Positions 1,539-17,218 of a stretch of 20,328 nt of DNA are shown here, one piece after another (the stretch's first letter is position 1; every line of letters begins with the position of its first letter). The notes under the pieces are model-generated. The model saw only the letters and a program-made list of their open reading frames with translations, was not told where the DNA came from and made no database searches. The stretch comes from a virus. Location of the stretch: positions 1-20,328 of the IMG/VR virus record IMGVR_UViG_3300043099_000017; one strand, given 5' to 3'. The translations under genes and the position numbers were made by a program.

Positions 1539-3062
1539 ATGGGCTTCCGCGACCGCATCAGTCATGCTCTTGGTTTTGGCAAGTCCAAGGCTGCGCCATT
1601 GGCACAGGCGGCACCACGGAAGCTAAAGCGGACGTATCAAGGCGCAATTATCAGCCGACTGACTGCTGACTGGTTGGCAACGCAAACCAGCGCGGACGCT
1701 GAGATTCGCACCAGTCTGCGGAAATTGCGGGATCGTTCCCGCGAGATGGTGCGGAACAATCCATATGCAAAGCAAGCGAAGCGCACAACCCAGATCAACG
1801 TTGTAGGCACTGGGGTAGCACTGCAGGCGCAGGTGATGCTGCTGCGCGGCAACCGTCGTGACGAGCGAATCAACAAGTTGATTGAGGGCAAGTGGAAGAC
1901 GTGGTGCCGTAAGGAGCATTGCGATGTGGCTGGGCGGTATAGCTTCCACGATTTGGAATGGCTCGCCACTGGGGCCTTGCCGGAGAGTGGTGAAGCACTG
2001 TTTCGGATCGTGCGGCGTTCATTTGGCGGGTCAAGTGTGCCACTGGCGCTGCAGATTCTTGAGTCCGACATGCTTGATGAGGAGTATCAAGGCGGAACGC
2101 TTGCTGCGGGTAATGAGTGGCGCAATGGCGTTGAAGTGAATGAATGGGGCCGCCCAGTGCGGTACGCGATGCTGACGCGGCATCCAGGTGATTACTGGTT
2201 CCAGAACGGCAAGCAGCGGAACGAGAAGCATGTGTTCCTGCCTGCTGAGGATGTCATTCACCTGTTCCTGCCAGAAAGGCCTGGACAGAACCGTGGAGTG
2301 CCTTGGTTCCATGCAGTGATGGCCGATGCCCATCAACTGCAAGGATATGAAGAGGCAGCGGTGATTCGTGCTCGTGCGGGCGCCAGCTTGATGGGATTCA
2401 TTACAAATAATGAAGGTGAGCTAACGCCAGACGACATCGAGAACAACCAACGGATCAGCGAGTTTGAGCCTGGAACGTTCAAATATCTGGCGCCAGGCGA
2501 GAACGTGACTGTGCCAAACATTGACTCACCGGATCAGCAGTTTGACATGTTTGTCCGCAACAAGGTGCGGCGATTCGCATCAGGCTTTGGTTGCTCTTAT
2601 GAGACCCTGAGCAGGGATTTCTCGGAAACCAATTACTCAAGCAGCAGGCTGTCGTTGCTGGAGGATCGTGAGCATTGGCGGGTAGTGCAGAACTATTTGA
2701 TTGAGAATTTTCACATGCGGATCTACCGCGAGTGGCTGAACCTTGCGGTGTTGGCCGGTGAGCTGCCATTTCAGGATTATGAGCTGCGCCCTGAGCGGTA
2801 CGACAATCCCAAGTGGCTGACCCGTGGATGGAGCTGGGTTGATCCGCTCAAGGAGGTCAAGGCATACCGTGAAGCTGAGCAAGCTGGTTACATGACTAAG
2901 GCGCAGATCATTGCGCAATCTGGTGGCGGTGACTTTGACGACAACGTGGCGGAGCTTGCTCGTGAGCAGAGTGTTGCCGATGCGGCGGGCGTCACCTTGG
3001 ACAAGGACTTGCTTGGTGCGGTGGCACCACCACCACCACCTGCTGTTGAGGAGCAACCATGA
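1539..3062 (+). CDS. Phage portal protein, lambda gpB family
   Basis: A 507-residue portal protein (Phage_portal_2 family). It forms the dodecameric ring at one capsid vertex through which DNA enters and leaves, and to which the connector binds. Family signs include the N-terminal ADAEIRTSLRKLRDRSREM and NNPYAKQAKRTTQINVVGTG segments, VNEWGRPVRYAML, the HLFLPERPGQNRGVPW block, and FGCSYETLSRDFSETNYSSSR with the downstream EHWRVVQNYL helix. Length agrees with lambda gpB (533). The C-terminus ends in a short proline run encoded by repeated ACC triplets. ATG 1539 lies two bases after the previous stop (TGATCATG) and is preferred over the in-frame TTG at 1533. No clear Shine-Dalgarno is visible, so translation is probably coupled. 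Its stop overlaps the next ATG as ATGA. Confidence 0.95.
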   Translation: MGFRDRISHALGFGKSKAAPLAQAAPRKLKRTYQGAIISRLTADWLATQTSADAEIRTSLRKLRDRSREMVRNNPYAKQAKRTTQINVVGTGVALQAQVMLLRGNRRDERINKLIEGKWKTWCRKEHCDVAGRYSFHDLEWLATGALPESGEALFRIVRRSFGGSSVPLALQILESDMLDEEYQGGTLAAGNEWRNGVEVNEWGRPVRYAMLTRHPGDYWFQNGKQRNEKHVFLPAEDVIHLFLPERPGQNRGVPWFHAVMADAHQLQGYEEAAVIRARAGASLMGFITNNEGELTPDDIENNQRISEFEPGTFKYLAPGENVTVPNIDSPDQQFDMFVRNKVRRFASGFGCSYETLSRDFSETNYSSSRLSLLEDREHWRVVQNYLIENFHMRIYREWLNLAVLAGELPFQDYELRPERYDNPKWLTRGWSWVDPLKEVKAYREAEQAGYMTKAQIIAQSGGGDFDDNVAELAREQSVADAAGVTLDKDLLGAVAPPPPPAVEEQP

Positions 3063-5740
3063 GCGCAATGCCAACTGAAGGGATGCGCGAGGAAGCGCGT
3101 CGTTATCGGGAGTGGAAGGAACAGGGCCGTAAGGGTGGCACTGAGGTTGCTGCGCGGCGTGCTGGGCAGATTCTCAGTGGTGAAGAATTGAGTGATGAGA
3201 CGATCGTGACGATGAGTGCATGGTTTGCTCGTCATGAAGTTGACAAGCAAGGTCAAGGCTTCAGTCCTGGTGAAGAGGGTTATCCATCGCCCGGCAGGGT
3301 GGCATGGGCAGCATGGGGTGGTGATCCTGGTAAAGCTTGGGCAGATAGCCTTGTTGCAAAGATGGATCGCATCATGAACGAAGAACGCCCCTATCCCAAT
3401 GAACATGCTGCTCGATTGCGTGATCCTGGGCAGTACGACAGCTTTCGTCGCCGTAACGATGCGGCTGGTGAAGGTGTGGACTTCATTTTTGGCATCAAGG
3501 AAGGAGAGGAAGGCGCTGAACTGCAGGCGATCCGTTTCCGTTTGAGCCAGTTCACGGCTGCTGAAGCCCGCAAATGGCTCAGTGACCGTGACTATGAGCC
3601 AATTGAATTTGAGGAGGCAACAGGCGAGCGTGAGTTGCGTGCAGCGCCTGATGCACTGAAGGAAGGTGATTTTGTGTCATGGAATAGCTCAGGCGGTACG
3701 GCACGAGGCCGTATCGAGCATGTGATGCGTGAGGGGGTGTTGGGTGTGCCCGAAAGCAGCTTCAGCATCAATGCAACGGCTGAAGATCCAGCGGCATTGA
3801 TTCGTATCTATAGGCAGGACAGCGATAATGAATGGCAAGAAACGGAGACCCTTGTTGGTCATCGCTTCAGTACGCTGACCAAAATTGAGGCATTGAGGTC
3901 TATGGATGACAAGCGGGACTACACCGGCAAGTATCAACGTACTGAGGCCACTCAGTTTCGTTCTATTGAAGAGCGGGTGATGGAATTCCCGTTCAGCTCG
4001 GAGTATCCGGTTGAGCGGTATTTCGGAAAGGAAGTGCTGAGCCATGAAATGGATGCAGCAGTCCTTGAGCGGTTGAACGATGGCGCACCACTTCTGTTTA
4101 ACCACGATCCTGATCGCGTACTGGGCGTGGTCGAACGCGCTTGGGTTGACGGTCAGAAGAGGCGTGGTTACGCAAAAGTGCGTTTCAGCCGCAGCAAGGC
4201 CGCTCAGGAGATCCTTGATGACGTGCGCGATGGCATTTTGCGTGGCGTGAGCTTCGGCTATTCAATTGATGAAATGCAAGAGCGCGACGGCGCAATGGTC
4301 GCCACGAGCTGGTCTCCTTATGAAATCAGCGTTGTTTCTATTCCCGCCGATCCGACGGTGGGCGTAGGACGTTCACTCATTCCGGAGCAAACTATGCAAC
4401 CCGAGGAGACTAAGATCGAAACTGAAGTCACTGAATCCATTCAGGAGGAAGTGCGCAGTCAAGCGGCCTCCGCCGCATCACCCGAACCTGAGGTTCAAAT
4501 GGAGAACAACACCCCTGATGTGGAGGTGATCCGGTCCAAGGCCGTCGAGGCCGAGCGGAGCCGTATCGCCGCCATCACCGCACTGGGCGAAAAGCACCAG
4601 CTGCAAGATCTGGCCCGCGAATTGATCGATGGTGGTCGCACCCTCGATGAAGCGCGTGCTTCTGTCCTCGACAAACTCGGCCAAGCCCCCATGGAACAAC
4701 CTATTCGCTCTCAAGACATGACTCAGAACGATCTGGGTCTGGACAAGAAAGAGGTGAAGCGCTTCAGCTTCATCAAGGCTCTGAACTACCTGGCCAATCC
4801 TGGTGATGCAAGCGCCCGTCGCTCTGCTGAATTTGAGATTGAGGTTGGTAAGGCTGCCGCTTCCAAGTACGAGCGCTCTTCAAACGGCATCGTGGTGCCG
4901 AACGAGGTGCTGCGTCGTGATCTGGTGGTGGACATCCCCGCTTCCGGCGGCAACTTGGTGGCTGATGAACTGCTTGCTGGCAGCTTCATTGATCTGCTCC
5001 GCAACCGTCTGGCACTGGCCCAGGCTGGCGTCACCATGCTGACCGGCCTGCAGGGGAACATCTCGATCCCCCGTCAGACCAGCGCCGCCACTGCTTACTG
5101 GGTGGGTGAGAACGTTGCTCCGACCGAATCGCAGCAAGCGATTGATCAGGTCAACATGACCCCCAAGACTGTGGCCGCTTTTGTGGACTACAGCCGTCGT
5201 CTGCTGCTCCAGTCGAGCATCGACGTTGAGGGCATGATCCGCAACGACTTGGCTCGTGTGATCGCTCTGGAAGTTGACCGTGCTGCCATGTACGGCACTG
5301 GCTCCACCAACCAGCCCCTGGGTCTGATCAACACGACTGGCATCGGCACTGAGACCCTGACCAACGCTGGCACCTTTGTGCAGCTGATTGCGATGGAGAC
5401 CGACGTTGCCGTTGCTAACGCTGACGTGGGTTCGCTGCGGTACATCATGAACGCCACCGCTCGTGGCCTCCTGAAGTCCACCAGCAAGGCCGGCACCGAG
5501 GCTTCCTTTGTGTGGGAGAACAACGAGGTCAACGGTTATCCGGTGATCGTCTCCAACCAACTGCTGAGCAACGATGCTCTGTTCGGTGACTTCAGCCAGA
5601 TGGTGATGGGCATGTGGTCCGGTCTGGACCTGATGGTTGATCCCTACGCTGGGGCCACTGCTGGCACCGTGCGCGTGATTGCCCATCAAGACCTCGACGT
5701 GGCTGTTAAGCAGCCCGGCGCCTTCTGCTACGGCACCTGA
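3059..5740 (+). CDS. Prohead protease-scaffold-major capsid polyprotein with N-terminal accessory domains
   Basis: One 893-residue frame encodes several head functions. Residues about 27-98 are a conserved-looking segment (GGTEVAARRAG ... GRVAWAAWGG). Residues about 112-190 contain YPNEHAARLRDP, a motif I associate with phage prohead proteases. Residues about 198-283 look like a TUDOR-type domain (DUF2945/Hva1_TUDOR: GDFVSWNSSGGTARGRI). Residues about 285-445 are an HK97-type prohead serine protease with His349 (LLFNHDP), Ser398 (GVSFGY) and Glu422 (YEISVVS), matching the His-Ser-Glu triad. Residues about 446-560 are charged and Ala/Glu-rich, like the HK97 delta/scaffold region. The rest is an HK97-fold major capsid protein (GLQGNISIPRQ, AYWVGENVAP, ALEVDRAAMYGTG, VIVSNQL). 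Known biology is that the protease removes the scaffold and itself during maturation. An internal start at 4394 could make scaffold-capsid alone. Codons become strongly biased in the capsid half. Confidence 0.95.
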   Translation: MSAMPTEGMREEARRYREWKEQGRKGGTEVAARRAGQILSGEELSDETIVTMSAWFARHEVDKQGQGFSPGEEGYPSPGRVAWAAWGGDPGKAWADSLVAKMDRIMNEERPYPNEHAARLRDPGQYDSFRRRNDAAGEGVDFIFGIKEGEEGAELQAIRFRLSQFTAAEARKWLSDRDYEPIEFEEATGERELRAAPDALKEGDFVSWNSSGGTARGRIEHVMREGVLGVPESSFSINATAEDPAALIRIYRQDSDNEWQETETLVGHRFSTLTKIEALRSMDDKRDYTGKYQRTEATQFRSIEERVMEFPFSSEYPVERYFGKEVLSHEMDAAVLERLNDGAPLLFNHDPDRVLGVVERAWVDGQKRRGYAKVRFSRSKAAQEILDDVRDGILRGVSFGYSIDEMQERDGAMVATSWSPYEISVVSIPADPTVGVGRSLIPEQTMQPEETKIETEVTESIQEEVRSQAASAASPEPEVQMENNTPDVEVIRSKAVEAERSRIAAITALGEKHQLQDLARELIDGGRTLDEARASVLDKLGQAPMEQPIRSQDMTQNDLGLDKKEVKRFSFIKALNYLANPGDASARRSAEFEIEVGKAAASKYERSSNGIVVPNEVLRRDLVVDIPASGGNLVADELLAGSFIDLLRNRLALAQAGVTMLTGLQGNISIPRQTSAATAYWVGENVAPTESQQAIDQVNMTPKTVAAFVDYSRRLLLQSSIDVEGMIRNDLARVIALEVDRAAMYGTGSTNQPLGLINTTGIGTETLTNAGTFVQLIAMETDVAVANADVGSLRYIMNATARGLLKSTSKAGTEASFVWENNEVNGYPVIVSNQLLSNDALFGDFSQMVMGMWSGLDLMVDPYAGATAGTVRVIAHQDLDVAVKQPGAFCYGT
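4384..4396 (+). promoter_or_regulatory. Candidate internal ribosome binding site and ATG for a scaffold-capsid product
   Basis: GGAG at 4384-4387 precedes an in-frame ATG at 4394 with a 6-nt spacer. Initiation here would give a 448-residue protein starting MQPEETKIE, just after the last protease motif and at the first residue of the acidic scaffold-like segment. That size and layout resemble a stand-alone HK97 capsid precursor. Nested in-frame starts within protease genes are known in lambda (C/Nu3). Use of this site is inferred from spacing and domain boundary only. Confidence 0.55.
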
Positions 5741-7048: not shown

Positions 7049-7369
7049 TCAGTCTCGCTGCCGCCAGTCCTCAGGTTTGTCTTGCCGAAAGAAGTCTGCG
7101 ATTTCATCTGGGCTGTTGAAACGACGAATGCCCTTGGCTTCGTCGCCAACTCCTCCGATGTCAAGTTGATTGAGGAAGTCATCAAGGCTTCCTTCGTGCA
7201 TTTCAGGGTTTTGCGCTCGGCGTTGCGCTTGCCGCAGCATTGAGGCTGCAGTGCGATTGACCTCGCCAAGCTTGTTTGCCCAGATGCGATCTTGCAGCTC
7301 GACTGGTTGCTGCGCTGCAATGCGGGCACAGATTGCCTGTAGACGTAGGCGGTACTTGGTTGAAAGCAT
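7049..7369 (-). CDS. Conserved phage-type protein of unknown function on the opposite strand
   Basis: A 106-residue, mainly helical protein, the only clear minus-strand gene. It starts MLSTKYRLRLQAICARIA and continues with QDRIWANKLGEVNRTAASML and SLDDFLNQLDIG, which I recall as a small protein recurring in phage and prophage structural modules. It ends in FFRQDKPEDWRQRD. A GTG two codons upstream (7375) is an alternative start; neither has a clear Shine-Dalgarno. The stop abuts that of the plus-strand 6896 gene with no gap, the two stops forming TGATCA. The opposite frames do not explain its balanced composition, so I regard it as a gene rather than a shadow. Transcription of the late module would run antisense to it. 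Function unknown. Confidence 0.75.
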   Translation of the reverse strand: MLSTKYRLRLQAICARIAAQQPVELQDRIWANKLGEVNRTAASMLRQAQRRAQNPEMHEGSLDDFLNQLDIGGVGDEAKGIRRFNSPDEIADFFRQDKPEDWRQRD

Positions 7370-7418
7370 TGCCACGCCACTGGTGGCTGAACAATAGCGA
7401 GGCCGCTACCATGTAGTC

Positions 7419-7856
7419 ATGGCATTCAGCGAAGACCTGGATCTGTTTTTGGCCGATTTCGGCGTGCCAGTAACGGCAGGCGATGTAAGCGGCATTGGCA
7501 TCTTTGATATGCCAAGCGAGATCATCGCTGATGGCGTGATCTTGACTACGGACTACAAGGTGACAGCAAAGGCATCTGACTTTGGCGATCTCTTGAACGG
7601 CTCGCAGGTTTCGGTCAATGGCGCGGCTTACACGGTGCGGAATGTGCAATTTATGGATGACGGCAAGTTTGTCGAGTTGATGCTTCAGCGTTCTGTTGAG
7701 ACGCCATATCAGACGAGTTTCACGCCGATCAATGGTGATGATGCTGATAGCGATATTCCGGTAGCACCCGTGGTGCAGCTCGACTCTGTTGTTGACGGTG
7801 GTGGCGCAAGTACCGTTTACGCTGATGAGAACGTATTTGACAGCGGGGCGGCATGA
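7419..7856 (+). CDS. Head-tail connector, lambda gpFII-like
   Basis: A 145-residue protein. Residues 1-95 follow the gpFII/Phage_attach pattern: an N-terminal DLDLFLADFGVPVT helix, IFDMPSEII, the DGVILTTDYKV strand, then GSQVSVNGAAYTVRNVQFMDDG. Lambda gpFII (117 residues) binds the gpW ring at the portal and creates the surface to which the tail attaches. The extra C-terminal 45 residues are acidic and glycine-rich (SVVDGGGASTVYADENVFD) and may reach towards the tail. Upstream lies a 50-bp region divergent from the minus-strand gene. No good Shine-Dalgarno is visible. Its stop overlaps the next start as ATGA. Confidence 0.8.
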   Translation: MAFSEDLDLFLADFGVPVTAGDVSGIGIFDMPSEIIADGVILTTDYKVTAKASDFGDLLNGSQVSVNGAAYTVRNVQFMDDGKFVELMLQRSVETPYQTSFTPINGDDADSDIPVAPVVQLDSVVDGGGASTVYADENVFDSGAA

Positions 7857-8470
7857 GCAGCACAGCACGACTTCGGCTTCGGCGTGATACAGCCGCTGGA
7901 TGGACAGCAGCGAATCCCGTGCTTTTGCTGGGGGAGGTTGGCATCGAGACTGACACCCGCAACTTCAAGGTCGGTAATGGCAGCAGCGCTTGGTCTGCAT
8001 TGTCTTATTACTTAACAGCAGTGGGTTCGGTGGTGCGCGGCCAGGTCAGCAAGATGGACGCCGGCACCATCACGATCACCACTCAAGGCGTCTATGTCTC
8101 CACTGGGCTCACTGGCACCTTTGACAGCACCACAGCCAACGGCATGACGCTTGGCACCACCAACGCATTTGCGGTGAAGAACACTAGCGGCAGCACCAAG
8201 CTGATGCAGATCTACGGCAGCATCGACGCCAAGACCGCCAGCGGCAACAACAAGATCCTCGGCATCAAGCTGGCTAAGAATGGCACTGCCATAGATCAAA
8301 CCGAGTGCCGCGCTTTTACAGGTTCCGGCGCGGAGGAAGCCAAGCTGGTTACCAATTGGATCATCAGCATGGCTGCTGGCGACGAGGTGGCGCTGTTCAT
8401 TGCCAACCACAGCAGCAATGTGGACATCACTCTTGGCCGGGCTCGGCTTGTGGCTGTTGAGGTTGCGTAA
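7853..8470 (+). CDS. Fibre or spike protein with Mtd-type N-terminal domain
   Basis: A 205-residue protein. The first 50 residues match the Mtd_N-type virion attachment module: an LRLRRDTAAGW start, then NPVLLLGEVGIETDTRNFKV and GNGSSAWSALSYY. This module anchors receptor-binding or fibre proteins to virions. The remaining 150 residues are beta-rich and Gly/Thr/Ser-rich (GTITITTQGVYVSTG, LMQIYGSIDAK, DEVALFIANHSSNVDITLGRARLVAVEVA), a pattern like C1q/TNF-type jelly rolls that form trimeric tips. It is coupled by ATGA to the gpFII-like gene and shares one base with the next start. Position suggests a neck or head fibre rather than the distal tail tip. Receptor binding is inferred. Confidence 0.75.
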   Translation: MSSTARLRLRRDTAAGWTAANPVLLLGEVGIETDTRNFKVGNGSSAWSALSYYLTAVGSVVRGQVSKMDAGTITITTQGVYVSTGLTGTFDSTTANGMTLGTTNAFAVKNTSGSTKLMQIYGSIDAKTASGNNKILGIKLAKNGTAIDQTECRAFTGSGAEEAKLVTNWIISMAAGDEVALFIANHSSNVDITLGRARLVAVEVA

Positions 8471-9034: not shown

Positions 9035-9267
9035 CATCACGTCAACGCAAGGAGTACCAAGCACCTCAACCTATTGTTGTAGATGCGTACCAAGGGCAAG
9101 GTGGCTCGTACATCCTTGACTCCGAGACCGGCGTTCGCACCTTGGTGCAACGCACACTCCCACCAGGAATGGCGGGGGAACCTGAAATCCAAGAGGTAAT
9201 TTCCGATGCCACTTCTGACACGCAAACGCCTGATTCTGGCGGAGACGGAGTCCAGCTACGGGGTTGA
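9031..9267 (+). CDS. Small tail-region protein of unknown function, overlapping the tail tube gene
   Basis: A 78-residue protein coupled to the gpU-like gene by ATGA. The first half is ordered-looking with a conserved-type core (VVDAYQGQGGSYILDSETG then VRTLVQRT). The second half is acidic, Gly/Ser/Thr-rich and probably disordered. The last 62 bases overlap the start of the tail tube gene in another frame, including that gene's ribosome site AGAGG at 9192-9196. Similar short proteins precede tail tube genes in other phages as far as I recall, but no function is known to me. Confidence 0.65.
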   Translation: MTSRQRKEYQAPQPIVVDAYQGQGGSYILDSETGVRTLVQRTLPPGMAGEPEIQEVISDATSDTQTPDSGGDGVQLRG

Positions 9268-10369
9268 CCCTTCGCCCGATGGCGCTGATGCCATTTTGGT
9301 GCGGGATCTGAACATCACTCCTCAGCAGAGTGATGTGGTCAACCGCGACTTGGTGCGACCCTATCTGGGTGCATCCGAGCAATTGCTCGCCAACACTCGC
9401 GTTGAATGCACCTTCAGCGTGGAACTGGCTGGCAGTGGCACTGCTGGCACTGCACCACGCTTTGGCAAGGTGCTCAAGGCATGTGCTTTGGCTGAGACGA
9501 CTGTTTCGCCTGCTGTGACTGGCACTGCCACTGCTGGTGGCTCCAACACCATCACGCTGGCTGCTGGCGCTAGCTCCAACAACGACTTTTACAACGGCCA
9601 AGTGATTCGCATCACTTCTGGTCTTGGTGTTGGCTCGGTGTTCTTGATCACCGATTACGTTGGCTCGACCAAGGTCGCCACGCTGCGTTCCATTGGCGCT
9701 GCGGTGACTCTGGATAGCACCAGCGTTTACAGCATTGACGCTCACGTGGTTTACACCCCGGTGAGTTCCACGTTTGGTTCGGTGACGCTTCACTACAACA
9801 TTGACGGTGTGCTGCACAAGCTCACTGGTTGCCGTGGCACGTTCTCGATCAACACTGCTGTTGGCGAAATCCCGACCATCGACTTCACGATGACCGGGGT
9901 TTACAACGCTCCTACCGACACTGCTGCGCCGAGCGTCACCTACGCCGATCAGGCCACGCCTCGGATCTTCAAGGCTGGCAACAGTGGTGCCTTCACCCTG
10001 CTTGCTTACAGCGGCTGTCTCCAGTCTGTTTCGATGGACCTGGGCAACAGCACGGTGTATCGGGAGCTGGTGGGCTGCACCAAGGAAGTGCTGATCACTG
10101 ATCGCGCCACCACTGGCACGGTTGTGATCGAGGCACCGACCATCGCGCAGAAGGACTATTTCACTGCTGCGTTGACTGACGGCACCCTGGGTGAGCTTTC
10201 ATTCATCCATGGCACCACTGGTGGCAACATCGTGGCGCTGCAGTCCACCCGCGTGGACATCGGTGACCCCAGCTATCAGGATCAAGATGGCATTCACATG
10301 CTGTCGCTGCCGTACACGGCGATCCCGAGCACGGCTGGTAATGACGAGTTTAGGCTCGTCTTCGCCTAG
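9206..10369 (+). CDS. Major tail tube protein
   Basis: A 387-residue protein whose N-terminus (RKRLILAETESSYGVDPSP) is typical of siphophage tail tube proteins; stacked rings of it form the tube around the tape measure. Further signs are the GASEQLLANTRVECTFSVELAGSG block, VIRITSGLGVGSVFLITDYVG in an inserted beta domain, and LTGCRGTFSINTAVGEIPTIDFTMTGVY near the second half of the tube fold. Position after a gpU-like gene fits lambda V. Lambda gpV is 246 residues, so this one carries extra surface domains. AGAGG lies 9 nt before the start. Codon use is strongly biased (AAC, ACC, ATC, GGC), as expected for a protein made in hundreds of copies per virion. Confidence 0.88.
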   Translation: MPLLTRKRLILAETESSYGVDPSPDGADAILVRDLNITPQQSDVVNRDLVRPYLGASEQLLANTRVECTFSVELAGSGTAGTAPRFGKVLKACALAETTVSPAVTGTATAGGSNTITLAAGASSNNDFYNGQVIRITSGLGVGSVFLITDYVGSTKVATLRSIGAAVTLDSTSVYSIDAHVVYTPVSSTFGSVTLHYNIDGVLHKLTGCRGTFSINTAVGEIPTIDFTMTGVYNAPTDTAAPSVTYADQATPRIFKAGNSGAFTLLAYSGCLQSVSMDLGNSTVYRELVGCTKEVLITDRATTGTVVIEAPTIAQKDYFTAALTDGTLGELSFIHGTTGGNIVALQSTRVDIGDPSYQDQDGIHMLSLPYTAIPSTAGNDEFRLVFA

Positions 10370-10393: not shown

Positions 10394-11659
10394 ATGGTGC
10401 AACTTACCAAGAAGCGACTGATCCTTTCCAAGGTTGAGGGCGTGTATGGCATTGATTCAGCTCCTACTGGAGCTTTTGATGCCATACACGTTTTTGACCT
10501 GGAAATTATTCCGCTGCAAAGCGAAGTAGTTGATCGTGAGACAGTGCGTCCGTATTACGGCGCTTCGGAGCAGTTGCTGGCCAATACTCGTGTCGAAGTA
10601 TCAATGAGTGTTGAGCTGACAGGCAGCGGCGTAGTCGGAGTGACACCACAATTCAGCTCACTGCTGAAGGCCTGTTCGCTGAGCGAAACAGTGACAAGCG
10701 GCCCGGTTGCAGGCACTGCGGCTGGGGGTGGAGTCAATACAATCACGCTTGATGCCAGCGCTAGCTCGGTTGAGCGTGTTTACGTTGGCCGAATTATTCG
10801 AGTGACTGGCGGGCTGGGGCAGGGAACACTTGGGCTGATTATTGATTATGTCGGCGCCAGCAAGGTTGCATCAATTCGACCGTTGAACGGCAATACGACT
10901 TACGACAACACAAGTGTTTACAGCATTGATGTTTCCACTATCTACGAACCTATTAGCGACAATCCACAGTCAACAACTATTTATTACAACGTTGATGGGA
11001 CGCTTCATCGTATTACCGGATGCAGGGGCACCTGTGCCGTAGTTGCGGACTTGGGCTCGATACCGGCCATTGAGTTTGTTTTCAACGGCATTTACAACCC
11101 TCCAACGGATACTGCGCTGCCAGCGGTGACATATGCCAATCAGGGGCCACCAAGTATTTTCAAGGCTGGCAACACAGGTGCTTTTGCCCTGCTTGGATTC
11201 CGTGGCTGTCTTCGATCAGTCGTCATGGAATTGGGCAACGAGTTGATTTTCCGTGACCTGCTCAACTGCCATGAGGAGGTATTCATCACGGGTCGTGACG
11301 TAAATGGCAGTGTTGAAATCGAGGCACCAGCATTGGCTGGGGTCAGTGGGAAGGATTTTTTCGCTGCAGCGCTGGGCGGCGCAATGGACCTTGTTGACGC
11401 CTTATTGACCGAGGATTCTTTTGATTTGCTTTACGAAGATTCTGAGCGTATTTACCTAGATCCCACCGATCCAGCTGCAGGTGATTTGTCCTTCATCCAT
11501 GGGAGGACGGCTGGGAATCTGGTGGCGCTGCTGTCCAGCCGAATTGACTTGGTGGATCCTGACTATGAAGACGCAGAGAGCATCCAAGGCCTTTCCATCC
11601 CGTATGTGGCAACGCCATCGACCAACGGCAACGATGAATTCATGCTGATTTTTGCCTAG
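10394..11659 (+). CDS. Second tail tube-like protein, diverged tandem paralog with an insertion
   Basis: The 421-residue product aligns along its whole length with the preceding tail tube protein, roughly half the residues identical by eye. Shared blocks include GASEQLLANTRVE, SVELTGSG, NTSVYSIDVS, ITGCRGT, IFKAGNTGAFALL and the end GNDEFMLIFA. It differs by a 35-residue acidic insertion at 11375-11479 between AAAL and GDLSFIHG. Codon choice is much less biased than in the first copy, suggesting lower expression. It lies 24 bp after the first copy with no clear Shine-Dalgarno. It may be a minor tube subunit, for example at the tip or terminator end, or a variant tube protein bearing a displayed loop. 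Which one builds the main tube is inferred from codon bias. Confidence 0.85.
   Translation: MVQLTKKRLILSKVEGVYGIDSAPTGAFDAIHVFDLEIIPLQSEVVDRETVRPYYGASEQLLANTRVEVSMSVELTGSGVVGVTPQFSSLLKACSLSETVTSGPVAGTAAGGGVNTITLDASASSVERVYVGRIIRVTGGLGQGTLGLIIDYVGASKVASIRPLNGNTTYDNTSVYSIDVSTIYEPISDNPQSTTIYYNVDGTLHRITGCRGTCAVVADLGSIPAIEFVFNGIYNPPTDTALPAVTYANQGPPSIFKAGNTGAFALLGFRGCLRSVVMELGNELIFRDLLNCHEEVFITGRDVNGSVEIEAPALAGVSGKDFFAAALGGAMDLVDALLTEDSFDLLYEDSERIYLDPTDPAAGDLSFIHGRTAGNLVALLSSRIDLVDPDYEDAESIQGLSIPYVATPSTNGNDEFMLIFA
11375..11479 (+). repeat. Acidic LLxED-type insertion in the second tail tube-like protein
   Basis: The 35-residue segment has the repeated pattern ALLTEDSFDLLYEDSERIYLD. It is absent from the first tail tube copy, where only about five residues occupy this place. 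The Leu-Leu-x-Glu-Asp spacing resembles the motifs at 6986-7033 and 18478-18543. Confidence 0.55.
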
Positions 11660-11674
11660 CACGGGGCTGCGCAG

Positions 11675-11707
11675 CGCCTTTAACCAAGGCGTAAGGCCAT
11701 TTTTTTT
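11675..11707 (+). terminator. Probable intrinsic terminator after the tail tube genes
   Basis: CGCCTT (11675-11680), loop TAACC and AAGGCG (11686-11691) form a perfect 6-bp hairpin. A run of eight T follows at 11700-11707 after an 8-nt gap, which is longer than ideal. A 10-base perfect palindrome GCTGCGCAGC (11666-11675) lies directly upstream. Location between the tube genes and the chaperone gene makes a partial terminator plausible. Confidence 0.5.
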
Positions 11708-11743
11708 GTTTGACTGTATGCTTGTAGCAGTCCAGTACCTCAC

Positions 11744-12070
11744 ATGACTTTTATCCGAAAGAAGGTTAAAACCTTCAAGTGGCCCGTCACGGTGGAAGAG
11801 CCGTCTGATGGCGGCACGTTTGAGTCCAGCACGTTTGATGCCACGTTCAAGCGGCTGGGCCGCAGTGAGTTTGCCAAGTTGAGCGAGAAGGGCGACGTGC
11901 AGATGCTGCAGGCAGTGCTCGTCAACTGGGACGGCATGGATGATGAGGATGGCAAGCCCATTCCGTTCTCCCAGGCAGCCGTCAAAGAATTCGCTGATGA
12001 TCCCTACTGGATCCGTGGTGTACTGAAGGCTTACACCGAGACCTTCAACGCGGCACGGGAGGGAAACTAA
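11744..12070 (+). CDS. Tail assembly chaperone, gpG-like
   Basis: A 108-residue soluble protein in the lambda G position, between tail tube and tape measure. The features are a basic start, the WPVTVEEPSDGG strand, a FDATFKRLGRSEFAKL helix, then AVLVNWDGMDDEDGKPIPFS and a C-terminal helix ending FNAAREGN. This is the usual layout of siphophage tail assembly chaperones, which coat the tape measure protein and recruit tube subunits but are absent from the virion. It ends in GGA AAC TAA, which is the slippery site for a -1 shift into the T frame. No Shine-Dalgarno is visible before ATG 11744; a nine-codon frame from 11718 overlaps it as ATGA. Confidence 0.85.
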   Translation: MTFIRKKVKTFKWPVTVEEPSDGGTFESSTFDATFKRLGRSEFAKLSEKGDVQMLQAVLVNWDGMDDEDGKPIPFSQAAVKEFADDPYWIRGVLKAYTETFNAAREGN

Positions 12071-12106
12071 GAGACGCTGCGGTCCACTGGGCAGGGGGTG
12101 CGCAGC
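12061..12106 (+). promoter_or_regulatory. Programmed -1 ribosomal frameshift site with downstream hairpin
   Basis: The heptamer GGGAAAC (12061-12067) sits in the correct phase (G GGA AAC) just before the G-frame stop TAA. After an 8-nt spacer, GCTGCG (12076-12081) can pair with CGCAGC (12101-12106) to form a 6-bp GC-rich stem with a 19-nt loop. The -1 frame is open from the slip to 12420. Lambda uses the analogous GGGAAAG for its G-GT fusion. Confidence 0.88.
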
Positions 12107-12420
12107 CGGTAGATGACAAGACAGATGATGACGCCAAGGCATTTGGCTTGATCCTGCCCATTGAGAACAAGCCCTCAGAGCCTGAGGGCTTTGTGGTGTG
12201 GGATGACAACTGGGAAACAGTGATGATGTTTCTGCGTATGGGTACGCAGTGGCAGGTGAGCATGGCGGGCTACACCGGGATGAAATATGAAGTGCTACTG
12301 GGTGCCGGAGGGATGTTTGAGCTTTATGATGTCAAGGACCGGCGTGGCATGTTGGAAGACCTGCAGATCATGGAGACCGCAGCCCTAGCCGAGCTTCACA
12401 AGGAGAGAGCCAATGGCTAG
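12067..12420 (+). CDS. Tail assembly chaperone extension (T domain), made as a G-T frameshift fusion
   Basis: This is the T part, read in the -1 frame. After slippage at 12061-12067, 117 codons follow (LRDAAVHWAGG first), giving a 225-residue G-T fusion from ATG 11744. The T domain includes FVVWDDNWETVMMFLRMG, a VLLGAGGMFELYD strand and a C-terminal helix. The frame has no credible independent start: only a TTG at 12148 without ribosome site, then ATG codons deep inside the domain. In lambda, gpGT binds the tape measure through G and tube protein through T. The terminal codons carry AAGGAG (12400-12405) for the tape measure gene, whose ATG overlaps the T stop by eight bases. Confidence 0.85.
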   Translation, partial: LRDAAVHWAGGAQPVDDKTDDDAKAFGLILPIENKPSEPEGFVVWDDNWETVMMFLRMGTQWQVSMAGYTGMKYEVLLGAGGMFELYDVKDRRGMLEDLQIMETAALAELHKERANG

Positions 12421-15400
12421 GAACCGGATTGAGGAGCTGCTGGTTGAGCTTAAGTTCAAAGGCGGGGAAGAGCTTAAAAAGATTTCCGGAGGGTTCCGTG
12501 AGCTAGCAAAAGCAGCCAATCTGGCTGATGCGGACATTGAAGATGCAAGAGCAAAAATTATTGATTATGGGAAGAGCCTTGGCAATACCAATCAAGCTGT
12601 AAAGGGTACGATCCAAGCGCTCAAGGCGCTGCAGGAATCTACGCAGCGCGGTGGAGAGGCATGGAACAAGCTTTCAAGTGATGTCCTTCAGTTTGAGCAG
12701 GCGGCTCGACTGACTGACCGGGAAATTGAATTACTGCGGCGCGGAATTGTTGAGGAGGCTAAAGCGCATGATCAGTCAGAGACTTCAATTCGTGCTCATG
12801 TAAGAGCTCTCCAAGAGCTTCGTGCTCAGTCTGTACTGGGCGGTCAAGTCAATAGGCAGCTCAGCCAGACCATTGGCCAGCTAACGCAACAGCTAGACCA
12901 AGCCGAGCTGGCAAGCCGGGCGCATTTCAGTGCGTTGAATCAGGCGCTTGCGGTGCGACCTGATGCTGTCCTTCGCCAATGGCAGGCATATACGCAAATC
13001 CTGCGTGATGTACGCGCCACTGCTGAGCAGGCTGCTGAAGCGCAACAGCGCTTGAATCAACTTGCTGGTGCGCCACGCATCTCAGCTCGTCGTGAACTTG
13101 TTGCCAGGGCTGGCATTCAAGCTGATCCCGCTTATCAAGAGCGCTTTGGTCTGGGTGGGCGATCCCTTGAGGCGCTGCCTGATGTGCCGGCAGCTCTTTC
13201 TCTGAGACTGCGCGAATTACAGGAAGACCTTAATTTTACGACTCGCAATACAGGCCTGTATATCAGGACCTTGGTTGAGATGGCTGCTGTGCAACGGCAG
13301 GCATCTGCTACCACGCAGGGCTTTGCTGCGGCATTGCGTGAGCAGTTGGCCTCTGGAGAGCTGCCACGCACGCAGAAGAACTTGCAAGAGGTCATTGGCG
13401 CTCTGCGGCGCGAGATGGTCGAACTTGATACAAGCACTGCTACTGGTTCGCGTGCTTATGCCGAGAACGCGGCGCAGGTGCGTGTACTGGAGCGTGAGTT
13501 AAATCAACTTGCCAATAGCTACCGCAATGTGGCGGACATGGCTGTGCAAGCCGCCACGGCTGAGCGCAGTGCTGCGACGGCACGTGTGACGGCGCTGTAC
13601 ATGAACAATCGCGCTGTGCGCGATCAAGCGCAGGCGATGAGTGAGTTGGGCAATGCAGTGCGTTCTGGCATTGCTGGCACGCCATTGATGCTGCCCGCTG
13701 CTGGGCAAACCAGCGCCCCAGGCACTGGATTGCAAGTCAGTGGTGGTGCTCGTATTGGCGGGCCTTCTGGCAATATCCAGAGGGTGCTGACACCTGGCAC
13801 GTTCCCAGGCGAGCGTCAGCAAGGGCCTGAAATATCGCCTGAGCAGGCAGACAGGAATCGTCGTGCCTATATCTCTCAGATTGATGCTGAGCGCCAGCTT
13901 CGGGAGGCAAGAGAAGCTTCTGAAGCGCAGCTGCAGGGCTACAGGGCTGAAATCAGTAAGGCTGCGCAGGCCAATGATGGAAGCATCAACAGCATCCAGC
14001 GTTACCGCGATTCTCTCGTAACGCTGCGCAATACGCTCCCAGCCACGGGCAACGAATTCAGGAAGTTAAGTTCTCAAGTTGAGAGGTTGGATGCGCAGCT
14101 TGAGCGTGCGCAACGCCGCCGCCGTCGCATGAGCGCCATGGAGGCCACTCAAGCGGCTGGCGCTGTCATCAGTGGCGGCATCTTTGGCGGCCCTGAGGGC
14201 GCCATTGGTGGTGCAATCGGTACAGCAGTTGGCGGCGTGCCCGGCGCCTTTGCTGGCGCTGCCATTGGTGCGCAGGCGGGGATGGTTCGGCAGGCAATCG
14301 GCTCCTATGCCGAGATGTCTGCTGAAATCAATCGCCTGCGTCAAGGCTTAGCCGCTTCAAGTAATAACTTCACAGAATTTACCAGGCTGGTTCAGATGAC
14401 CGAAGAGTCATCAAGGCGCCTGCTTATTCCGCTTGCTGATTCTTATCGAATCATGGCGCAGCTTCGGGCCAACACAGTTGAGCTTGGATACTCTCTTGAA
14501 GACACCAAGATGCTGTTTGAGGGCACAGCTACGGCTGTGTTCCAAACAGGCGGCAATCTTAATGATGTACAAGGTGCAATGCGTGCCATTGTGCAGGTGC
14601 TCTCCAAGGGCCGGCCACAAGCAGAAGAAATTAGATCTCAGTTGGGAGAAAGATTGCCCGGTGCAATTATTAAATTTGCCCAAGAGACTGGACGCAGCAC
14701 TGAAGAGCTTGAACAAGCATTTAAAAATAGCGAAGTCACTGTTGATGACTTCTTCAAGTTTGCCAAGCGCAATTTCAAGGATGGAGAGGGTTATTTTGAC
14801 AACCTTGCCACCAACGCTGAATTTGCTGGTCGCCGGTATGAAAAATCACTTGAAAATATTAAATTAACACTTGGGCGAACCTTCCAGACTTCTGGTGCTG
14901 CTTTCCAGGACTTTGCGACAAGATTCCTGGGCGGCTTAGATCGAATTTTGAATAAGTTAATCGAGCTTCGCGTGGTTCAACCGGGATCGCAATTTTTTGT
15001 TGAGCAAGTTTTAGCGGGCACTGTTAGCATTGACAAGCTTGAAGAACAGTTGCTAAGGACTGCCGATAAATACGAAGAGCTGAAGCAAAGAACAGGAATC
15101 CTGGGTCCTTTGTTCCCGGAGCTTGGCAGTCTTAACGCTGAAACAAAATCACTTGAAGACGCTTTAATAGTCCTTAGGCGTTTTGAGTCTCAAGCTAAAG
15201 AGCGCGAAACGGAGCAAGAGAAAGAGGCTAAAAAGCAAGAGCAGGAACAGCAAGCCCAGTCATTTCTACAGGCAGTTGAGCAACGTGAAGACGCCATTGC
15301 TCAGGCGCGAATTCAGCTTGAGGAGCAGGCTAGAGAAATCCGCAAGCAAGCAGTTGAACAGGTCAAGCAGCTTGAGGAAAATTTTGCGCAGCAGCGCCTG

Positions 15401-17218
15401 AGCAAGGAGCGCGAAATTGCGCAGGCCAGGCGTGAACTTGCCGGAGTGCAGCAAGATGTTGGATTTGAACTGGCGGCAGTCCGCGCTGCTGCTACAGGCG
15501 GTGACCCTGAAATTATCCGCATTCAACAAAGAATTGCAGAAGCAGGGCGTCAGCGCGACGAAGAACGCATTCGACTTGAGCAGGCACTACTAGATGAACA
15601 AACCGAAAGAAGTAAGGCAATCGAAGAACTGAAAACCAGCAATGCGACGGCTATCAACGAAGCCAATCTTCGCTATACCAAGGCGATTGGGGATGCGCAG
15701 CGCCAGTATGCGCGGGCGACTGCAAGGATTATTGAGGGGGGCACGGGAAGGGCCGCCAAGCGACTTGAAGCGGCTGGCAGGATCGTTGCAGCCTTGCTGC
15801 AGCAATCATCAGCAAAAGAAGCGTTTGGGGTGGCTACCGGAGGCAGTGCTGTTTCGATTGACGGCAGCAATGCCTTTGGAGTCAATATGACCAGGTATAG
15901 TGCCAAGGGTCTCTTGGCGGCCTCTAAGGCCACCAGCCCCCAGGCTGGGGCCGCTGCCTTAGAACTCATAAAATCAACCCAAGCCCTAGAGGACGCGCAA
16001 AGAGCACTCTCTGAAATACCTAGCGCAGCCTCAATTGCCGATCCGGCAATCAATAGCATTACCGTCGATATAGATGATTTGCTGCAAAACGTAAATAAGG
16101 CGGCTACTGGGCTCAAGGGTCTAAGTCTTCAATCGGCGGAAACATTCAAAGCACTTGGAGATGCGAAGTTTGGGCAAGCATTTGCACGTGAAAGCTCTCA
16201 AGCATTACAAAGCATTCTTGGTCTAACTCAAAACCTGAGAGCGGAGGAGGAAAAAGCTCTTGGCGTCTTGTCTTTGCGTGAAAGCGGAAAGCGAGGGGAT
16301 CTCGCTGAGCGTATTTACGACATAAATCAAGCTTTTGAAAGCGGTCGCAATGGCTTGGACGAAGCATTCAGAAGTGCTTCTGCCTTGACAACGGATCCGC
16401 AACAATTGACTGAGCTGAAAGCAGTGTATGATGTTTTGACCTCTTCCCTTTTTGACGCTAGGTCTGCTGCAATAGATCTTGCGGAGTCGCTGGCCGCTGT
16501 TCCGCCTGACCTGCAAATTCGCATTGCTATTCAAGACTTGGGGGATGAATTGAATAAACTGCTTGATCCAGCCAGGCAGGCAATCGGCGCCGCCACCGCG
16601 ATTGGCGATGCATTTGGCAATGCATTTAAGGGCGTCATTACCGGCAGCGTGAGTGCCAAGGAAGCATTAGCTGGTTTCTTCAGCAGCGTGGCCGAGTATT
16701 TTGCTGACATGGCCGCCAAGATGATTGCGGAATGGATCAAGCTGGCGATCTTGAACACGATTGTAAGGATCTTCAATCCCATCGCTGGCGCTGCAGCGGG
16801 TGGAGCTGGGCTCTCTGATTTGTCTGCCCCCGCTTCAATCAATAATCCTCTGGGCGTCTTGAATGCCAACGGCAACGCCTTCGCGCAGAACGGAATCGTT
16901 CCTTATGCCAAAGGAGGCATCGTCAACAGCCCGACGCTGTTTAAGTTTGCTCGTGGCAGCGCCATGGCTACAGGAGTCATGGGTGAAGCTGGACCTGAAG
17001 CGATCATGCCACTCAAGCGCGGTCCAGACGGCAAGCTTGGGGTTGCGGGGGGTGGCAGTGGCGCAACCACTGTTAATGTCAGTGTTGATGCCAAAGGCAC
17101 GCAGGTGCAAGGCGACTCTGCACAGGGCGCTGCGTTGGGCCGTGTGATTGCCGGCGCAGTGCAAGCCGAGCTGATTAAGCAGCAGCGCCCTGGTGGCTTA
17201 CTTTCGGGAGGTAGGTAA
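12413..17218 (+). CDS. Tail tape measure protein
   Basis: A 1601-residue protein that sets tail length and is ejected with the DNA. Residues 1-580 are mostly alpha-helical and coiled-coil-like, rich in Ala, Gln, Glu and Arg. Residues about 582-624 form a Gly/Ala-rich hydrophobic stretch (GGAIGTAVGGVPGAFAGAAI) that could enter a membrane. Residues about 630-825 match the phage tape measure domain (SYAEMSAEINRLRQGL ... LSKGRPQAEEIRSQLGERLPG ... GRRYEKSLENIKLTL). Residues about 928-1015 are a strongly charged coiled coil. The C-terminus has the lambda gpH-type YAKGGIVNSPTLF and GEAGPEAIMPL. From the known scale of about 0.15 nm per residue the tail would be about 240 nm if all of it spans the tube. 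The ribosome site AAGGAG is 7 nt upstream. Confidence 0.97.
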   Translation: MARNRIEELLVELKFKGGEELKKISGGFRELAKAANLADADIEDARAKIIDYGKSLGNTNQAVKGTIQALKALQESTQRGGEAWNKLSSDVLQFEQAARLTDREIELLRRGIVEEAKAHDQSETSIRAHVRALQELRAQSVLGGQVNRQLSQTIGQLTQQLDQAELASRAHFSALNQALAVRPDAVLRQWQAYTQILRDVRATAEQAAEAQQRLNQLAGAPRISARRELVARAGIQADPAYQERFGLGGRSLEALPDVPAALSLRLRELQEDLNFTTRNTGLYIRTLVEMAAVQRQASATTQGFAAALREQLASGELPRTQKNLQEVIGALRREMVELDTSTATGSRAYAENAAQVRVLERELNQLANSYRNVADMAVQAATAERSAATARVTALYMNNRAVRDQAQAMSELGNAVRSGIAGTPLMLPAAGQTSAPGTGLQVSGGARIGGPSGNIQRVLTPGTFPGERQQGPEISPEQADRNRRAYISQIDAERQLREAREASEAQLQGYRAEISKAAQANDGSINSIQRYRDSLVTLRNTLPATGNEFRKLSSQVERLDAQLERAQRRRRRMSAMEATQAAGAVISGGIFGGPEGAIGGAIGTAVGGVPGAFAGAAIGAQAGMVRQAIGSYAEMSAEINRLRQGLAASSNNFTEFTRLVQMTEESSRRLLIPLADSYRIMAQLRANTVELGYSLEDTKMLFEGTATAVFQTGGNLNDVQGAMRAIVQVLSKGRPQAEEIRSQLGERLPGAIIKFAQETGRSTEELEQAFKNSEVTVDDFFKFAKRNFKDGEGYFDNLATNAEFAGRRYEKSLENIKLTLGRTFQTSGAAFQDFATRFLGGLDRILNKLIELRVVQPGSQFFVEQVLAGTVSIDKLEEQLLRTADKYEELKQRTGILGPLFPELGSLNAETKSLEDALIVLRRFESQAKERETEQEKEAKKQEQEQQAQSFLQAVEQREDAIAQARIQLEEQAREIRKQAVEQVKQLEENFAQQRLSKEREIAQARRELAGVQQDVGFELAAVRAAATGGDPEIIRIQQRIAEAGRQRDEERIRLEQALLDEQTERSKAIEELKTSNATAINEANLRYTKAIGDAQRQYARATARIIEGGTGRAAKRLEAAGRIVAALLQQSSAKEAFGVATGGSAVSIDGSNAFGVNMTRYSAKGLLAASKATSPQAGAAALELIKSTQALEDAQRALSEIPSAASIADPAINSITVDIDDLLQNVNKAATGLKGLSLQSAETFKALGDAKFGQAFARESSQALQSILGLTQNLRAEEEKALGVLSLRESGKRGDLAERIYDINQAFESGRNGLDEAFRSASALTTDPQQLTELKAVYDVLTSSLFDARSAAIDLAESLAAVPPDLQIRIAIQDLGDELNKLLDPARQAIGAATAIGDAFGNAFKGVITGSVSAKEALAGFFSSVAEYFADMAAKMIAEWIKLAILNTIVRIFNPIAGAAAGGAGLSDLSAPASINNPLGVLNANGNAFAQNGIVPYAKGGIVNSPTLFKFARGSAMATGVMGEAGPEAIMPLKRGPDGKLGVAGGGSGATTVNVSVDAKGTQVQGDSAQGAALGRVIAGAVQAELIKQQRPGGLLSGGR

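Follow-up and report, generated by a model that had tools for sequence, protein, structure and literature searches.

A GGGAAAC heptamer beside a stop codon as a very likely −1 frameshift signal between two tail assembly chaperones of a metagenomic phage

Introduction

Programmed −1 frameshifting between tail chaperone genes is common and well known in tailed phages. In lambda, a shift at G_GGA_AAG yields a minor GT product that is required for tail assembly (PMC5009743), and two tail chaperone genes of an HK97-like cluster gave 6–7% shifting in tests (PMC3711429). The first-pass annotation of the DNA studied here had given the lambda heptamer as GGGAAAG, which was confirmed in the lambda sequence.

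Heptamers ending in AAC are strong on mammalian ribosomes. In E. coli, G_GGA_AAC and A_AAA_AAC show low efficiency, but IS elements very likely make use of them (PMC4066793). Both are listed for the archaeal viruses HCTV-1 and -2 in a review (PMC5009743), and GGGAAAC or AAAAAAC was predicted for the tail chaperone genes of phiCbK and Colossus (PMC3556154). In addition, shifts were predicted for gp18/gp19 of Burkholderia phage KL1, with GGGAAAC directly before TGA (PMC3483164), and for gp12/gp13 of Acinetobacter phage Loki, with AAAAAAC directly beside the stop (PMC5313236).

Results

The G/T junction and its closest counterparts

The window, i.e., the whole stretch of DNA analysed, is the 20,328-bp virus record IMGVR_UViG_3300043099_000017. 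Its head and tail genes follow a lambda-like order: terminase, portal, protease–capsid, tail tube, chaperones, tape measure and minor tail proteins. By profile matches, the chaperone pair lies between a Phage_tube_2 gene upstream and a TMP_3 gene downstream. Since the nearest named relatives of the window are Synechococcus phages, the host is likely picocyanobacterial and the virus a probable cyanophage. A nucleotide search of window positions 11700–12500 against named phages gave no matches, and relatives were found by protein searches. The features of the junction are as follows.

11744..12070, + strand: G-like tail assembly chaperone ORF of 108 aa (Phage_TAC_4, phrog_569), the normal unshifted product
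12061..12067, + strand: slippery heptamer G_GGA_AAC in phase with G (GGGAAAC or AAAAAAC in 180 of 184 relatives)
12068..12070, + strand: G stop TAA directly 3' of the heptamer, CTA-A in the −1 frame; adjacency kept in relatives as TGA, TAA or TAG
12068..12075, + strand: 8-nt spacer from heptamer to stem, by coordinate check
12076..12081, + strand: hairpin 5' arm GCUGCG, 8 nt past the heptamer, exact complement of the 3' arm
12101..12106, + strand: hairpin 3' arm CGCAGC, in a register common to the window clade and unlike the arm of most relatives
12064..12420, + strand: T-like −1 frame of 118 codons from AAA (DUF1799, phrog_680), predicted to be made solely as the C-terminal portion of a 225-aa GT fusion
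12413..17218, + strand: tape measure protein (TMP_3), whose start overlaps the end of T

The 3' end of G reads GAG GGA AAC TAA; therefore, GGGAAAC is in phase as G_GGA_AAC on the final codons. The first-pass annotation had proposed this phase, an 8-nt spacer, a 6-bp stem and a slip at the last sense codons of G, such that an unshifted ribosome would stop at once, and all of these hold in the sequence. Its assignment of the two proteins to G and T chaperones was right as to a tail chaperone pair, but not as to the lambda families. G matches Phage_TAC_4 (PF08748) with 23.8 bits against a curated cut-off of 21.1, and the −1 frame matches DUF1799 (PF08809) with 47.7 bits against a cut-off of 26, while the window proteins gave no sequence or profile match to Phage_TAC_2 or Phage_tail_T.

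The locus resembles lambda G/GT in its position before the tape measure gene, its overlapping ORFs and a fusion predicted from a −1 shift at G_GGA_AAN close to the 3' end of G. However, lambda has GGGAAAG with the stop several codons later, whereas the window has an AAC heptamer with an adjacent stop, and the lambda proteins, Phage_TAC_2 and Phage_tail_T, have no sequence match to the window T. KL1 shares GGGAAAC beside the stop, but here an additional gene separates the pair from the tape measure gene, and the KL1 T frame, compared by eye, does not resemble that of the window. Loki, a prediction only, shares an AAC-ending heptamer beside the stop. In Rhodobacter phage RcapMu, RcapMu49/50 also present GGGAAAC before TGA, the next ORF is annotated DUF1799 and the record bears the note 'potential -1 frameshift', but its G is 24.6% identical to that of the window and its annotated T begins at an internal codon. 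The Phage_TAC_4/DUF1799 pair is also present in coliphage T1 and other Drexlerviridae. In T1, SECphi27 and Hanrivervirus, A_AAA_AAC lies directly before TAA, while Rogunavirinae and Webervirus differ from the window in having A_AAG or A_AAA one codon earlier.

Conservation of the heptamer, the stop and the −1 frame

The GGGAAAC 7-mer alone is not rare in the window (2 occurrences against 1.9 expected). Of 5627 codon positions in the remaining window genes, only 2 carry an in-phase X_XXY_YYZ (Y = A or T), and in 7% of trials with synonymous-codon resampling of the overlap, a slippery heptamer fell on the last two codons. It is the comparison with relatives, and not the heptamer count alone, that settles the matter against chance.

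This comparison, which the first-pass annotation had suggested, covered 184 distinct loci with a match to T, the −1-frame domain, from IMG/VR, genome contigs and named phages. Because a wide T alignment (A1) proved too diverse to scan the collections with, a narrower one was used. In 180 loci, (GGG|AAA)AAAC stands directly before TGA, TAA or TAG with T in the −1 frame, as GGGAAAC in 80 and AAAAAAC in 100. These signal-bearing loci form 65 clusters at 80% identity. The four exceptions are two contigs starting inside T (L058 and L061), a weak match (L162) and a Synechococcaceae MAG (L159). At positions 421–460, the latter carries eight A's; its AAAAAAA stands 27 nt ahead of the stop of G and is either a true variant or an assembly error.

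Conservation goes beyond coding need. Across the 65 clusters, the last two G codons are identical in every same-residue pair, against about 53% expected from codon usage, while codons near the slip site vary about as expected. In these genes, 9% of the codons for Gly are GGA and 33% of those for Lys are AAA. Exchanging AAC for AAT would keep Asn in G and, through TTA or TTG, Leu in T, and AAT accounts for 31% of Asn codons, but none of the clusters uses it. The earlier remark on AAC as the less usual ending in bacteria stands with regard to efficiency (PMC4066793, PMC5009743) but not for the Phage_TAC_4/DUF1799 family, where AAC is the rule.

Homology of T starts at the slip site. Residues K1 and L2 of T are dictated by the heptamer and the stop themselves. 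Since residue A5 is nearly invariant and the T-frame third positions directly past the slip are the most variable (5954 against 2338 and 3250), the −1 frame is, by these comparative measures, constrained as coding sequence from the slip site on, and not merely from TTG 12148. In the open-access literature, no published account of a family-wide (GGG|AAA)AAAC and adjacent-stop pattern was found.

Among cultured phages, AAAAAAC directly precedes the stop in T1, SECphi27, aalborv, JLBYU09, SSL-2009a, Ioannina, phiES15, S-CBS1, S-LBS1, S-CBS3 and ZX4290, and GGGAAAC does so in RcapMu, RC1, phiPMW, S72 and KL1. In Serratia phage ZDD2, the stop comes four codons after AAAAAAC, and a single sense codon lies between an in-phase GGGAAAC and the stop in Microcystis phage Mwe-JY26, a weak match. 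The first-pass annotation had named relatives with a destroyed heptamer and an independent T start as evidence against frameshifting. Relatives that lost the heptamer were found to keep a shifty site with T still in the −1 frame: A_AAG one codon earlier in e4/1c and Sf12 (outlying Drexlerviridae) and Klebsiella phage Mingus, and A_AAA one codon earlier in TSK1 and VAC9 (also outlying Drexlerviridae), with one extra sense codon ahead of the stop in these variants. The outlying Drexlerviridae and Mingus (L327, L328, L329, L333 and L335) offer a natural set in which slip sites can be compared in enterobacterial hosts.

Hairpin and upstream element

The window hairpin has an energy of −15 kcal/mol, with a z of −0.12 against dinucleotide shuffles and +0.98 against synonymous shuffles. 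Being no stronger than shuffles, it was dropped as independent evidence. Across the family, the minimum free energy just past the slip has a mean z of −1.8 against synonymous shuffles, while z elsewhere in T ranges from −0.5 to +0.3 (Wilcoxon p of 4e-10 for the region past the slip). One relative, L016, has a 14-bp hairpin of −23.6 kcal/mol. In many relatives, GCNGCN pairs with an arm 18 or 21 nt further on, for example GGCGGC; in the window clade, the partner of GCUGCG is CGCAGC, at a distance of 25 nt. Base-pair covariation is weak, and the case for the hairpin rests on the synonymous-shuffle energies. These argue strongly for selection of a hairpin at this position, convincingly for the family and not for the window alone. 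The proposed GC stem is present in the window, at a strength like that of its shuffles, and a hairpin at this place is selected across the family.

A Shine–Dalgarno-like element, typically GGAG or AGGGAG with its end 7 nt upstream of the heptamer, occurs in most relatives and across the family is stronger than in synonymous resampling (z of −1.15). No such element was found upstream of the heptamer in the window or its clade. A placement exactly as in E. coli dnaX was rejected because the spacing is 10 nt in dnaX and 7 nt in the family. Whereas the dnaX signal has three elements (upstream element, heptamer and a hairpin 5–9 nt downstream), the window lacks the first, and its hairpin, 8 nt downstream, has an energy like that of shuffles.

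Discussion

Owing to the comparative evidence (180 of 184 loci, invariant slip codons and hairpin selection), programmed −1 frameshifting very likely joins the G-like and T-like tail chaperones of the window, with a probability of roughly 0.93. The heptamer, its phase, the adjacent stop and the −1 frame kept in relatives make this the best reading. Points against it are the weak heptamer in E. coli, a window hairpin like its shuffles, the absent Shine–Dalgarno-like element and TTG 12148.

In the proposed mechanism, most ribosomes would read G through to TAA 12068 and release the 108-aa chaperone. In a minority, tRNA-Gly on GGA and tRNA-Asn on AAC would re-pair one base back, on GGG and AAA, and the shifted ribosomes would read CUA AGA GAC and onwards to give a 225-aa GT fusion ending in DUF1799. 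The hairpin 8 nt downstream probably slows the ribosome and in this way aids the shift. If the proteins act as in lambda, the tape measure protein may be coated by many G and few GT molecules, with T recruiting the tail tube subunit.

Separate translation of T, by internal initiation or reinitiation at TTG 12148 or at a CTG/CTA overlapping the stop, with the heptamer incidental, seems improbable. TTG 12148, which follows an AAGG at a distance of 8 nt, could be a start, if an unlikely one, and its product would retain the DUF1799 core; moreover, GenBank records usually begin T at internal starts, and RC1 is annotated from CTG. However, start codons ahead of T have no conserved position among relatives. 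In 14 of the 65 clusters, no ATG, GTG or TTG occurs before the DUF1799 core, and only 14 have one with a Shine–Dalgarno-like match. The stretch ahead of TTG is conserved as protein, as seen in A5 and the third-position bias. CTG or CTA as the start codon was rejected, since the codon alternates between the two among relatives, and in many of them it is CTA, which is no start codon. Separate translation would also leave the invariant slip codons unexplained. The earlier claim that the T frame lacks a credible start of its own therefore holds as far as no start is conserved, with TTG 12148 as a reservation.

Polymerase slippage on runs of A is known in bacteria, and the AAAAAAC forms have six A's. 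A fusion made by transcriptional slippage is nevertheless very hard to credit here: the run of A's in the GGGAAAC of the window and its clade is just three long, which is not enough for the polymerase to slip, clades swap G_GGA for A_AAA as the heptamer rule predicts, and the hairpin is selected at a ribosomal distance.

A refinement compatible with programmed −1 frameshifting is that the slip is coupled to termination, the G:GT ratio being set by slipping against release factor at the adjacent stop. This is rather unlikely, though less so than either alternative above. The stop adjoins the heptamer in 180 of 180 signal-bearing loci, and AAC shifts poorly in the standard test (PMC4066793). Placing a stop codon behind the HIV-1 slip site lowers shifting, and an excess of release factor reduces it more (PMC4373837); in work cited there, a stop behind a slip site decreased frameshifting in E. 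coli and excess RF2 abolished it, which implies that this codon occupied the A site before the shift. However, effects reported for stops at the slip-adjacent position are inhibitory, ZDD2 keeps its heptamer with a more distant stop, and adjacency may simply minimise the G tail or be a by-product of the CTR codon for Leu behind the slip site. If termination coupling were true, the AAC heptamers that a large phage lineage has fixed beside a stop, weak in E. coli, would serve to let slipping compete with release factor.

The window system is a further case of the lambda G/GT strategy, already known, in an unusually uniform heptamer form; GGGAAAC or AAAAAAC beside a stop is likewise already known as a prediction in KL1 and Loki. 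A metagenomic, probably cyanobacterial, phage thus very likely uses a tail chaperone frameshift, and one pattern, (GGG|AAA)AAAC with an adjacent stop, spans most of the sampled Phage_TAC_4/DUF1799 lineage, including T1. This also sharpens a question that is testable in T1: why AAC, a codon that shifts poorly in E. coli, became fixed in the family, and why beside a stop. The GT fusion has been missed in annotation because most GenBank records examined (L145–L155 and L326–L337) begin T at an internal codon or omit it; KL1 has the sole joined CDS and RcapMu the sole frameshift note among them.

Other features of the window

Upstream of the chaperones, 9206–10369 and 10394–11659 encode tandem tail tube paralogs, 53% identical, with an insertion of about 33 residues near the C-terminus of the second. 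One 893-aa ORF (3059–5740) fuses a Peptidase_S78 prohead protease to a Phage_capsid major capsid protein and has a long N-terminal part with a Hva1_TUDOR match. At 7049–7375, on the minus strand, a 108-aa ORF with no Pfam matches runs antisense to all head and tail genes. The product of 7853–8470 has an Mtd_N (major tropism determinant N-terminal) domain, and its gene is partly 89% identical at the DNA level to Synechococcus phage S-LBS1, far above the rest of the window.
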